A stretch of DNA of 64,000 nt. Source: an uncultured Bacteroidales bacterium (GTDB taxonomy: Bacteria; Bacteroidota; Bacteroidia; Bacteroidales; Paludibacteraceae). Below the pieces are notes generated by a model that was given only the letters and a program-made list of their open reading frames with translations, was not told where the DNA came from and did not search any database. How positions within the stretch are numbered: position 1 is the stretch's first letter; each line of letters starts with the position of its first letter. Shown here piece by piece: positions 15,180 to 56,708 of the stretch. Location of the stretch: NCBI GenBank assembly GCA_902800525.1, contig CADCEV010000003.1:124001-188000 (forward strand), read 5' to 3'. The position numbers and the translations under genes were made by a program.

Positions 15180-15218
15180 GATTACGTCCCTGACAAGGAG
15201 CGTCAGCTCCGCCTAATT

Positions 15219-15250
15219 ATCCCCCGTTCTCTCGTAGAGCGGGGGATTTT
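15219..15250 (+). terminator. intrinsic terminator after dnaK
   Basis: Hairpin with stems ATCCCCCG / CGGGGGAT (roughly 15219-15247), then TTTT. A smaller hairpin GGAGC-GTCA-GCTCC lies just before it at 15197-15210. Confidence 0.8.
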
Positions 15251-15306
15251 CTATTTCCCGTTTCTCCTTATCCCTTCCCCCTTTCCTCCGTTCGGCATTT
15301 CCCTTT

Positions 15307-15690
15307 TTTGTATCCGCCAATCTTGGCGGATTGGAAATGCCGCTTTGTCTCTCTCCCCCTCCATGGGGTTATCCTTTTTCCCCTCCCCCCCCTCGATGTC
15401 CTGTGCGCGCCACCTCCGTTGGCGCGTTTCCTCTTCGTCTATTTCTCCGGCATTGTATGCCGGCATCTTTTGTATGTTCATTTCCCCGGATTGTATCCGG
15501 CATCCGCCGTCTTGTATCCGTACTTTGTCTATTGCGCCGGAATTGAATTCCGGCATTTCGTCGTTTATTGCGCCGTCTTGTATCCTGCATCTTCCCCTCT
15601 TCCTCTCGCCCCACGTTGTCCTGTGCGCGCCACCTCCGTTGGCGCGTTCCCTCCTCTTTCTTCCTTTTTTCCGGATACCATCCGGAGCTT
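15307..15690 (+). repeat. hairpin array in non-coding DNA
   Basis: No convincing gene between dnaK and 15781. The stretch is pyrimidine-rich on the plus strand and carries at least seven short perfect palindromes: 15312-15331 (the era terminator stem again), 15406-15426 and its copy 15626-15646 (CGCGCCA/TGGCGCG), 15447-15463 (CCGGCA/TGCCGG), 15486-15500 (CCGGA/TCCGG), 15537-15553 (CCGGAATT/AATTCCGG) and 15671-15685. Degenerate units with CCG..TTGTATCC also occur at 15507 and 15573. Open frames here have low-complexity translations and are rejected. Confidence 0.7.
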
Positions 15691-15724
15691 CCCTCTCCCT
15701 CCCTTTCTTGCTGTTTACCTGCGG

Positions 15725-15759
15725 TGCTTTTTCTTTTTTTGCTGTTTATCTGCGATTTT
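15725..15759 (+). repeat. long direct repeat, copy 1
   Basis: A 35-base sequence (TGCTTTTTC, T-run, GCTGTTTATCTGCGATTTT) that recurs at 16649-16684 with one extra T. The two copies flank the structured RNA candidate and the small lipoprotein gene. Confidence 0.85.
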
Positions 15760-15780
15760 CTGCTATTTTTTGCAAAAATA

Positions 15781-15812
15781 TTTGCATATATCAAAAAATT
15801 GTTGTATCTTTG
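15781..15812 (+). promoter_or_regulatory. promoter before the structured RNA / lipoprotein
   Basis: TTTG at 15781-15784, 20 bases, TATCTTTG at 15805-15812, then CACCGTCTTTTG. It is a full consensus promoter nearly 380 bases ahead of the nearest protein start, which suggests a non-coding RNA or a long leader. Confidence 0.8.
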
Positions 15813-15817
15813 CACCG

Positions 15818-16030
15818 TCTTTTGATAGATAGCTGGCTCCGACAGCGTAAAAAAGCGGTGACATATTGATTATTTCGCGTTTGCGATTTATTGGACATTT
15901 CGAAATGTAGGAAGTTTTAAAATGACACCAATAATAAGTCAGCAAACGTCCATAGTGTATATATGGGCGTGACTTATCGGTGTTATGGGCATTTCCTACA
16001 GCCTCGAAATGGATAAGGAAACGCTCATAT
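15818..16030 (+). ncRNA. candidate structured RNA, 6S-like rod
   Basis: Downstream of a consensus promoter lies one long imperfect hairpin. Paired segments: GCGTTT 15877-15882 with 16019-16024; TTAT 15888-15891 with 16013-16016; CATTTCGA 15896-15903 with 16004-16011; TGTAGGAA 15906-15913 with 15993-16000; a bubble of about 11 and 9 bases; ACACC 15925-15929 with 15979-15983; ATAAGTCA 15934-15941 with 15970-15977; CCATA 15950-15954 with 15962-15966. A closing stem, central bubble and apical stem are the plan of 6S RNA, but identity is not proven. T-rich sequence follows. The alternative is a long structured leader of the lipoprotein gene. Ends are approximate. Confidence 0.45.
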
Positions 16031-16165
16031 TTCTTTTGTGTTTTTCCAACAATAATACCGCAAACGGTTTTTATAGAGAACCGTACTCTTCAAACGGGGC
16101 AATACCTGTTAAGCCGTAAGAGCAGGATATTAATTTTACTGTATTATTTTAGAACCGAGGGGACG

Positions 16166-16195
16166 ATGGTATATAACGGTCAACAAATTCAATGA
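16166..16195 (+). other. possible nine-codon leader ORF
   Basis: ATG GTA TAT AAC ... CAA TGA encodes MVYNGQQIQ. Its stop overlaps the lipoprotein start as ATGA. The same design (nine codons, ATGA overlap, lipoprotein downstream) occurs at 52158-52187. Translation is not shown. Confidence 0.3.
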
Positions 16196-16593
16196 AAAAG
16201 TTTTTGATGTATTTCATGGCGGTTTTGTTCGCGGGAATGACTTTCACAAGCTGCCAAAAGAATGATCCGGCAAGCCTTATTCAAGCTAAGTGGAGTGCAA
16301 CTTTAGTCTCTATGACTGAAGACGGTCAGACTCAAGATGTAAAAATTGAGACACCGAGTTACATTTATTACACCTTTTTTGCTGATGGCAATTATTTAAG
16401 AGAAATAAATGCTATGGGTGAGAAGGGTCAGGATGAAGGCATCTGGGAATTAAAAGATAAGATTTTAACTCTCGACAAAGGTGGCTATGACGAGATGGAA
16501 TACAGCGTGTTGGAATTAACAGGTTCCAAACTTGTCGTAAAGGCTCAAATGGGTTCATCTTCTATAAAGATCAACTTTAATAAGGTAAAGTAA
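16192..16593 (+). CDS. small lipocalin-like lipoprotein, unknown function
   Basis: A 133-residue protein with a lipoprotein signal (MKKFLMYFMAVLFAGMTFTSC; lipobox Cys21), so it is probably anchored in the periplasm or outer membrane. The mature part has alternating strands (WSATLVSMTEDG, YIYYTFFADGNYLREI, GIWELKDKILTLDKGG) reminiscent of the lipocalin-like Bacteroidota lipoproteins that end in a beta-rich fold. It stands alone between dnaK and an orphan gene, with a long, structured upstream region. I cannot assign a ligand or role. A weak terminator hairpin follows. Confidence 0.75.
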   Translation: MKKFLMYFMAVLFAGMTFTSCQKNDPASLIQAKWSATLVSMTEDGQTQDVKIETPSYIYYTFFADGNYLREINAMGEKGQDEGIWELKDKILTLDKGGYDEMEYSVLELTGSKLVVKAQMGSSSIKINFNKVK

Positions 16594-16619
16594 TTTCGCT
16601 GACAAAAAGCACTATGAGG

Positions 16620-16643
16620 GACGACCATTCGGCCGTCTCTTTT
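16620..16643 (+). terminator. probable terminator after the lipoprotein
   Basis: GACGACC-ATTC-GGCCGTC hairpin with one mismatch, followed by TCTTTTCTTT. Confidence 0.55.
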
Positions 16644-16648
16644 CTTTA

Positions 16649-16684
16649 TGCTTTTTCTTTTTTTTGCTGTTTATCTGCGATTTT
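16649..16684 (+). repeat. long direct repeat, copy 2
   Basis: Second copy of the sequence at 15725-15759, differing by one T in the T-run. Confidence 0.85.
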
Positions 16685-16931
16685 GGTGATTTTTGGACGA
16701 ACTAATAGATATAAATTCGTTTAATTCTTATCTCGTTTCACTCGAACGATTTTTTCGTTTAATTCGCCGTTTTTATTTTTTTTGGATCGTTTTTGGACAT
16801 TTTGGACTAAAAATAAAATTGTCTTTAATTGTCTTTAATTGTTGACCACTAAAAATTCGTTCCCTTTGTGTCCTTTGTGAATGCAAAAATCGCCCCAAAA
16901 CATATTTTTATCACTTTTTCGTGTCAAAAAA
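16685..16931. other. AT-rich stretch without a gene
   Basis: No plausible coding sequence. It contains short direct words (TTTTTGGAC repeated; TTGTCTTTAA twice in tandem near 16820-16840) and TTCGTTTAATTC variants. It may be a decayed or regulatory spacer; nothing further can be supported. Confidence 0.5.
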
Positions 16932-16963
16932 TTTGCATATTCCATTTTTTTGTTGTACCTTTG
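16932..16963 (+). promoter_or_regulatory. promoter of the 114-residue orphan gene
   Basis: TTTG at 16932-16935, 20 bases, TACCTTTG at 16956-16963, then CACCATC. The leader to the ATG at 17119 is about 150 bases. Confidence 0.8.
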
Positions 16964-16986
16964 CACCATCTTTACCTGATCGGAAC

Positions 16987-17020
16987 GACGGTCAAGCGAC
17001 GGTCAAGCGACAGTCAAAGC
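16987..17020 (+). repeat. three tandem 11-12-base repeats in a leader
   Basis: GACGGTCAAGC twice exactly (16987-16997, 16998-17008), then GACAGTCAAAGC. They lie in the likely 5' leader of the gene at 17119. Followed near 17068-17105 by a long AT palindrome-rich tract. Confidence 0.75.
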
Positions 17021-17118
17021 CAACGTAACTTACCGGTAAAGCCCAAAATGAGCCCAAATTTTTATGTAATACTATATTATATATTTATATATAATATACA
17101 TTTTAAAAACCTCTTTTT

Positions 17119-17463
17119 ATGTCAGAAATTAAAACATCCTCAGGCATCGACGAGATTCGCGGCAAAACCAACGGCCGTGACAGCGGCTATTTTTACATGC
17201 GAAACGGCAAACAGTTTTACCGCACACGCGAAGAATCCTACCAGAAAAATCAGTCTCCTCGTCAAAAATGGAACTCCGCCGCTTTTAAATATGCCAACTC
17301 ATACCTCAAACTCCTGACCTCTCCCGAGGCCAAAGCGCAACTCGAGGCCGACTTTGAAGCAGCAAAACACATCGCTTCTAACGGAAAATCGTACTCCACT
17401 TCCCGTGCTTGGAAATTCAACTCTCTCATCCATGATTACAAAGTGGCGCATCCTTTTGAATAA
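17119..17463 (+). CDS. uncharacterised 114-residue protein
   Basis: I do not recognise a characterised family. The protein starts MSEIKTSSGIDEIRGKTNGR, then YFYMRNGKQFYRTREESYQKN and a helical C-terminal half (NSYLKLLTSPEAKAQLEADFEAAKHI). It has no signal peptide or membrane segment and is moderately basic at the N-terminal side. It has its own full promoter and a long leader with tandem repeats, so it is probably a real, separately regulated gene. A competing frame (16868-17317) lacks a fitting start and is rejected. A nucleic-acid or structural role is possible but unsupported. Confidence 0.7.
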   Translation: MSEIKTSSGIDEIRGKTNGRDSGYFYMRNGKQFYRTREESYQKNQSPRQKWNSAAFKYANSYLKLLTSPEAKAQLEADFEAAKHIASNGKSYSTSRAWKFNSLIHDYKVAHPFE

Positions 17464-17550
17464 CTATGCACTAAATACGAGCCTACTTTTCTTCTTGTTG
17501 ATGAAATAAATCTATATTTTGCAAAAAAATCAATAAAAAAGTAAAAAATA

Positions 17551-56600: not shown

Positions 56601-56628
56601 AAAAAGCGCAATGAAAATGCGCTTTTTC
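56601..56628 (+). terminator. terminator after the EF-G paralogue
   Basis: AAAAAGCGCA / TGCGCTTTTT hairpin with a seven-base loop. Confidence 0.85.
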
Positions 56629-56637
56629 TTATTTTTA

Positions 56638-56669
56638 TTTGCATATGTGCGAAAAAAGTTGTAACTTTG
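56638..56669 (+). promoter_or_regulatory. promoter of the barrel protein-GT2 run
   Basis: TTTG at 56638-56641, 20 bases, TAACTTTG at 56662-56669, then CACGCTTTTTGG. Confidence 0.8.
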
Positions 56670-56708
56670 CACGCTTTTTGGTATGTATAATTCAATTTTT
56701 TAATCAAT

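Follow-up and report, generated by a model that had tools for sequence, protein, structure and literature searches.

The window analyzed here is a stretch of 64,000 nucleotides from a contig of an uncultured Bacteroidales bacterium (Paludibacteraceae), in which positions 15818-16030 fold into a rod between a promoter and a lipoprotein gene. The question raised by this locus is whether such an RNA works on its own, as would the 6S RNA that the first-pass annotation named as its candidate, or whether it belongs to the gene behind it as a regulatory leader.

The rod-shaped element and its promoter

Positions 15818-16030 folded into a single rod of -66.8 kcal/mol, compared with -46.2 ± 4.4 kcal/mol for 200 dinucleotide shuffles (z -4.66), none of which reached the stability of the native fold. 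The rod spans approximately 15883 to 16024 and consists of stacked helices and internal loops, as the first-pass annotation had described, and the rod-shaped RNA is thus confirmed as a real observation. The consensus promoter claimed directly before it is also present and is of the Bacteroidota type (Table 1), with transcription predicted to start at approximately 15818. The class of Bacteroidota promoters with TAnnTTTG at -7 is also named in PMC9723704. This promoter type lies outside the model of our sigma-70 scan, and the promoter at 15781..15812 is absent from the list of that scan. The element was rightly placed far from any start codon, the next gene beginning at 16192, 162 nt past 16030. 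The span given for it holds for the rod but is too short for the feature, which continues past 16030 with a U tract (16030-16037), a motif resembling DUF805 (16071-16132) and a small hairpin before the ATG. At gathering scores, Rfam gave zero matches within the window.

Table 1. Features of the element and its surroundings in the window.
Feature	Position	Strand	Evidence
Direct repeat, copy 1, upstream of promoter	15725..15759	+	Core 20-mer found twice in genome
Bacteroidota-type promoter: TTTG (15781-15784), 20 nt, TATCTTTG (15805-15812)	15781..15812	+	Visible in the sequence itself
PK1, H-type pseudoknot: stem GCTG/CAGC, loop CTCCG with CGGTG past an A-rich linker	15832..15860	+	Rule-based search and swap test
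Segment a, with mini-hairpin CGC-GTTT-GCG (15876-15885); partner b in the terminated form	15876..15894	+	a:b swap z -14.0; second set z -8.6
Rod helices 1 and 2, 5′ strands (partner 15991-16011)	15896..15915	+	13 of 13 pairs with two-sided changes in 58 diverse rods
Segment b, including T5 (15946-15954); partner a or c	15928..15954	+	a:b and b:c swap tests; T5:T3 counts
Segment c (T3 and CTTATC); partner b (rod) or d (terminator)	15962..15978	+	b:c z -16.3; c:d z -13.6
Rod helices 2 and 1, 3′ strands	15991..16011	+	Pair covariation in 58 diverse rods
Segment d (GATAAG and E); closes the predicted terminator hairpin with c	16012..16029	+	3′ half 15962-16029, folded alone, has a paired 3′ end
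U tract TTTCTTTT of the predicted intrinsic terminator	16030..16037	+	At least 5 U in 8 nt after d in 94 of 95 elements
DUF805-like cis-regulatory motif (RF03081)	16071..16132	+	26.9 bits, E 0.033, under the gathering score of 51.1
Small hairpin of GATGGGATATAA type before start codon	16154..16182	+	By eye; at least 15 other copies
Lipoprotein gene with Lipocalin_4 domain, behind the leader	16192..16593	+	PF13648, E 3.3e-6; TSC in the translation, presumably lipobox-like
Direct repeat, copy 2, after lipoprotein gene	16649..16684	+	97% identical to copy 1

Relatives of the rod and its alternative pairings

A DNA search with the window element gave matches in 67 of 101 genomes; many short matches comprised the promoter alone, and the longer ones were the same leader before differing genes. 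A strict pattern matched 103 stretches of named records, with titles that were all Paludibacteraceae or Bacteroidales among the matches listed (80 of 103), and it had 0 matches in viral contigs. Model R1 matched in 56 of 61 genomes of the window's own genus, which appears to consist of uncultured, mostly rumen Paludibacteraceae, in 10 of 40 other genomes of the order, in 74 of 295 genomes of an order draw and in 11 of 296 genomes of a phylum draw; model R2, which is broader and was built on 58 diverse rods, matched in 66 of 392 genomes of the phylum draw. The genus, order-draw and phylum-draw counts include the window's own genome, the draws partly overlap, the filters are strict and several of the genomes are incomplete drafts; both models are rough, as are their E-values by the tool's own statement. 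In the R1 search of genus genomes and others in the order, up to nine copies per genome were found before unrelated genes. Most of the copies listed were scattered rather than arrayed; a few pairs lie within 2-4 kb of each other, as in G076:C295 from this search and L157 from the strict-pattern matches. The window itself holds a weak R2 match at 56604-56688 (21.4 bits, E 0.014). In the scanned loci the rod itself gave no match at the cut-off of any Rfam family.

When we analyzed 35 aligned rods of the same genus by RNAalifold, 21 of the 50 consensus pairs carried two-sided changes. Across the 58 diverse rods, which share 23 consensus pairs, there were 332 two-sided cells compared with 88 in shuffles, 95.8% of pair cells were paired compared with 72.2%, and slid partners fell to 30-43% paired; the rod is therefore conserved as a structure, and it passed the check by covariation in relatives that the first-pass annotation had proposed. 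The acceptance of G-U pairs within the helices, together with strand bias, leads us to favor an RNA over a hairpin at the DNA level.

At the rod tip, the 5′ arm (T5) has a look-alike in the 3′ end of the element (E), and the strand T3 can pair with either. In alignment A1, T3:E was paired in 95.2% of cells, with 22 two-sided cells compared with 5.4 in shuffles and slid controls at 25-61% paired, and the counts for T5:T3 behaved like those for T3:E. Forcing T3:E in the window produced a second complete fold, in which a:b forms a hairpin on the 5′ side and c:d another on the 3′ side, at -56.3 kcal/mol compared with -66.8 kcal/mol for the rod; T5:T3 and T3:E by themselves came to -11.3 and -11.0 kcal/mol.

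These pairings involve four segments, a to d (Table 1), for which duplex energies within an element were compared with those of partners swapped among elements, in all six pairings. Starting from 116 elements (100 complete R1 hits and 16 from the order and phylum draws), 100 could be segmented by rule, the automatic segmentation failing for 16, and 78 non-redundant elements were kept. Three pairings were specific, with 0 of 5000 permutations reaching the matched energies: b:c (matched -21.7, swapped -16.1; z -16.3), a:b (-18.6, -14.4; z -14.0) and c:d (-22.0, -16.4; z -13.6). For a:d, a:c and b:d no specificity was found (z 0.3, 0.5 and -0.2). The same division was obtained with 36 of 40 further elements, segmentation failing for four: z was -8.6 (a:b), -10.3 (b:c) and -9.6 (c:d), and the other three pairings again lacked specificity. 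Because these three share the same relatedness, relatedness alone is not the source of the signal. The element thus contains three alternative helices in which c pairs with b or d and b pairs with a or c, so that a strand of the predicted terminator is shared with a mutually exclusive antiterminator.

Segment a and an internal loop, 5′-GAAA/3′-RCCU, look conserved, and the a:b pairing explains the conservation of GCGUUUGC. The mini-hairpin of segment a is moderately supported, at 82.2% of cells paired compared with 73.7% in shuffles. A retron-like non-coding RNA was considered for this GUUU-loop hairpin and tentatively set aside. A basal helix of GCGUUU with RAACGC, proposed by RNAalifold on the 35 rods, is unsupported: it has zero two-sided change, because its 5′ side hardly varies, and a:d lacks specificity in either set.

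On the strand on which the element is read, c:d is followed by a U tract. A run of at least four T near the rod end occurs in 95 of 100 elements and is missing from five, and among those having it 94 of 95 carry at least five T in the 8 nt past d (34 of 36 in the second set); T runs of at least five were found at 87 of 100 rod ends compared with 34 of 199 control stretches. In the window copy a single C interrupts the tract. The c:d hairpin of the window is interrupted and has at least 15 pairs, and its 3′ half (15962-16029), folded alone, reached -25.6 kcal/mol with the 3′ end paired immediately before TTTCTTTT. Folded alone, the 3′ half had its end paired in 63 of 63 elements, these being those of the 78 for which placement by script succeeded, compared with 41% of 1260 shuffles (mean z -4.5). 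A terminator hairpin with a U tract is accordingly present at the level of sequence and predicted structure, and c:d with its U tract looks like an intrinsic terminator; it is absent from the list of our mechanical terminator scan because its loop exceeds the limit of the scan. In the same 63 elements the rod was more stable than the terminated form by 10.5 kcal/mol on average (range 3.2 to 24.4), and the terminated form therefore needs kinetics or a factor.

Further modules, genes and cassettes around the element

Additional modules flank the rod. PK1 precedes it in many genus copies, the window copy having one mismatch. Our rule-based search picked up the PK1 hairpin in 55 of 88 elements, a figure that probably includes spurious cases, and in none of nine loci of other families; for 40 distinct loop/3′-strand pairs, matched energies averaged -3.15 compared with -1.58 ± 0.26 when swapped (0 of 5000). 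Behind the rod, the motif at 16071..16132 reads as an H-type pseudoknot. DUF805 (RF03081) matched at the same place in 5 other of 20 scanned loci at 30.5-35.7 bits, its gathering score being reached neither there nor in the window, and DUF805b (RF02914) scored above its cut-off behind the rod in L086 and L273. DUF805 is said to originate from Weinberg 2017. In L096 a sub-threshold DUF805 match lies before the rod, not behind. Four class-level relatives (L280, L284, L285 and L286) show by eye a second small hairpin, CACTTT..TGAGTG, between rod and start codon. In the own-genome copy C1 (L086, 2820-3260) the rod is followed by an apparent reverse promoter, a forward promoter with DUF805b above its cut-off, and then a gene; an apparent reverse promoter was also seen by eye behind the rod in L113, L114, L115, L117, L118 and L043.

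The 103 R1 matches, after removal of three incomplete ones and of those with near-identical downstream sequences, left 89 elements for analysis of the genes that follow; simple scripts were used to call the ORFs. Behind 76 of the 89, an ORF of 60 codons or more lay on the same strand within 300 nt, at a median gap of 52.5 nt; eight had their nearest downstream ORF on the other strand and five had no qualifying ORF. In the order-wide set the corresponding figures were 39 of 40 and 55 nt. TAnnTTTG was found within 130 nt upstream of 54 of the 89, and not every copy is a promoter-proximal leader. Of the other 35, 23 lie close behind a same-strand upstream ORF, and some copies may therefore sit inside operons. 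The window copy has both the promoter before it and the co-directional gene behind it.

The downstream genes differ in content, with secreted proteins and DNA methylases often among their products. A signal-peptide-like start, scored by a simple rule that missed some obvious cases, was present in 49 of 76 downstream ORFs compared with 14 of 49 window ORFs (Fisher p 1.1e-4) and 11 of 87 ORFs in yceD loci. Among downstream proteins picked for annotation were DNA methylases and restriction-modification proteins (D12, type III, MmeI-type, type I-like and IIG), and 6 of 10 further picked proteins, mostly secreted, were without a Pfam match. The 39 order-wide genes, not picked by content, included five N6_N4_Mtase, two C5 methylase, two MmeI_Mtase and one EcoRI methylase, and BspA-type repeats in three of the 39, among the best 25 of 31 Pfam families; the methylase counts are raw, without a matched background rate. 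Ten picked upstream neighbors included two YoeB, one YafQ, one HEPN and one YhcG. L097, whose genome belongs to a different family, has matches to group II introns (RF01999 and RF00029) at 1088-1665, approximately 1.2 kb upstream of its rod.

In a close relative, G021, conservation of 92-97% extends over the dnaK side, over the promoter as far as 15817 and over the yceD side. Its promoter region (15713-15817) is 97% identical and homology stops at 15817; from 15818 to 16682 nothing is matched except the direct repeat. At this locus G021 has instead a gene that we read as radical-SAM-like, behind a diverged leader that R1 missed and R2 matched (49.7 bits, E 4.8e-8). Leader and gene therefore change together behind a conserved promoter. 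The 20-bp core of the direct repeat that flanks the window cassette occurs exactly twice in its own genome at up to two mismatches.

A second variable cassette lies at window positions 16868-17517, where G021 keeps the promoter to 16980 and the yceD promoter and the gene between is replaced; that gene, at 17119-17463, had no Pfam match at E≤1. The long intergenic stretch after dnaK (15180-15720) contains many short inverted repeats (for example GCGCGCCACCTCCGTTGGCGCG twice and variants of CCGGATTGTATCCGG), and G021 carries similar repeats. In G021 (L259, ~2910-2780, minus strand) a short ORF ending in CSGCANCSGIVGD follows the radical-SAM-like gene and has by eye the look of a RiPP precursor, with a DUF805b-like sequence, also seen by eye, preceding it.

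Proposed mechanism, alternatives and relation to known systems

Judged from these sequences, the element is very probably a cis-acting leader that works by transcription attenuation. RNA polymerase would start at approximately 15818 and make segments a, b, c and d in order. In the terminated form a:b and c:d would pair, the latter with at least 15 pairs and U residues directly after, and transcription would stop near 16037 to give an RNA of approximately 220 nt. In the read-through form b:c would pair and the strands on either side would close up to complete the long rod, leaving a to its mini-hairpin and d free; there would be no terminator, and the lipoprotein gene at 16192 would be transcribed. 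A factor bound at segment a with its mini-hairpin, or at PK1, would set the choice. Comparison among copies shows the rod and its alternative helices, the U tract, a usual place ahead of a co-directional gene and dispersal in front of unrelated genes; actual termination at c:d, an exchange between the two forms within the cell and a choice set by a bound factor are what we infer. The two alternatives to 6S in the first-pass annotation, a new RNA and a regulatory leader, find support together in the multiple copies, the same-strand ORF behind and the terminator and antiterminator strands.

The same promoter, terminator-like end and strong structure could belong to a stand-alone, trans-acting small RNA with its end at the U tract; the gene that follows would then be incidental or have its own promoter. 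This account is helped by the 13 of 89 copies without a qualifying same-strand ORF behind them and would better fit the several copies with an apparent reverse promoter behind the rod. We nevertheless consider it unlikely: a same-strand ORF follows at a median of approximately 50 nt in 76 of 89 and 39 of 40 elements, up to nine copies per genome lie before unrelated genes, and the conserved c:d and a:b alternatives are something for which a constitutive small RNA has no need. Neither would they be needed by a processive antitermination RNA, such as HK022 put or the Bacillus EAR element, that modifies RNA polymerase to read through long accessory operons. A complex conserved RNA, often before accessory and restriction-modification genes, would suit such an element, but the conserved terminator helix carried by the rod element itself, with partners that exclude one another, makes this account very unlikely. 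The case for 6S RNA, or a Bacteroidota variant of it, consists of the promoter and of the single, internally looped rod, and this reading has practically no chance of being correct. At E≤10, RF00013 matched nowhere in the own genome and did match in 8 of 14 control genomes (four over the cut-off); the element is multi-copy before protein genes and a same-strand ORF mostly follows approximately 50 nt downstream. RF01685 (6S-Flavo) had no match in the own genome either, a weak test since neither the 13 genomes nor the controls gave any match over the cut-off of that model. The 6S reading of the first-pass annotation was thus set aside.

A mobile palindrome acting as DNA, similar to a MITE or to an integron attC site and with a hairpin used in recombination, has a slim chance at best. 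Dispersal in multiple copies would follow from it, as would accessory, toxin-antitoxin and restriction-modification neighbors in the examples picked for annotation, the different cassette at the same locus in G021, the unique direct repeat flanking the window cassette and the few pairs of copies within 2-4 kb. Its hairpin would not, however, account for orientation with the gene, a U tract on one strand, G-U pairs in the helices or three-way pairing; most of the copies listed are scattered rather than arrayed, and the basal arms of the rod lack the R-box orientation of attC. On orientation and the RNA-level evidence, attC and MITE were set aside. A phage origin was also considered and set aside. 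Of the exact patterns searched in viral DNA, one gave a single 19-mer hit, where R1 found nothing, and one other gave 0; plasmid blastn with two members as queries gave none, and one member used as a single query had a 21%-coverage match in an unannotated phage record. With exact patterns and single members, these results do not imply absence from mobile elements.

If the attenuation reading is extended beyond this locus, the elements could represent a phylum-wide orphan class of RNA switch that travels with cassettes and through which one common cellular signal, perhaps an infecting phage or incoming foreign DNA, sets their expression by attenuation; we regard this as possible but doubtful. 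The cassettes would then be anti-phage restriction-modification genes in one branch and surface lipoproteins and BspA-type proteins in another, and a newly acquired gene would arrive pre-wired to a host signal. A structured RNA in 74 of 295 order and 66 of 392 phylum genomes, often multi-copy and without an Rfam match at cut-off over the rod in the loci scanned, would be a large gap for a phylum with a prominent place in gut and rumen. Its exchange of strands leads to direct predictions of a termination site and of compensatory mutants, and the link to methylases and restriction-modification raises the question of how bacteria dose newly acquired defense genes.

Within a literature search of limited coverage for subscription papers, we found no title or abstract describing the element. 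One Rfam family with a match over a rod is Pedo-repair (RF01715), a Pedobacter motif for which cis-regulation is called unsure in Weinberg 2010 (PMC2864571). Its full-length match to one rod (L006) is weak (26.4 bits, E 0.00056 in a 451-base search), far under the gathering score of 150 bits, and RF01715 had no match over 198 phylum genomes and none in the controls either; it may be an older, species-specific description of part of this family. DUF805 and DUF805b, as cis-regulatory motifs, match the part downstream of the rod in several leaders and are confined to that short part, the rod attenuator being absent from them. 6S RNA shares the rod with internal loops, and the window element differs from it in having no match to RF00013 or RF01685 in its own genome, in being multi-copy and in being a gene leader. 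Riboswitches with a terminator platform differ in that the annotated genes here share no pathway and no ligand or aptamer is known for the element; they share a structured 5′ leader and a mutually exclusive terminator and antiterminator. In trp/his-type attenuators segments 1:2, 2:3 and 3:4 pair. The element differs from these in its very large rod, in annotated genes that are not amino-acid ones and in the lack of a conserved leader ORF: with ATG starts only, 14 of 65 elements had any ORF that ends near segment a, differing in start and frame, and a leader-peptide attenuator, which has such an ORF over segment 1, was rejected. What it has in common with them is the exchange of strands itself, in which 1:2 with the 3:4 terminator stands against the 2:3 antiterminator, followed by a U tract.
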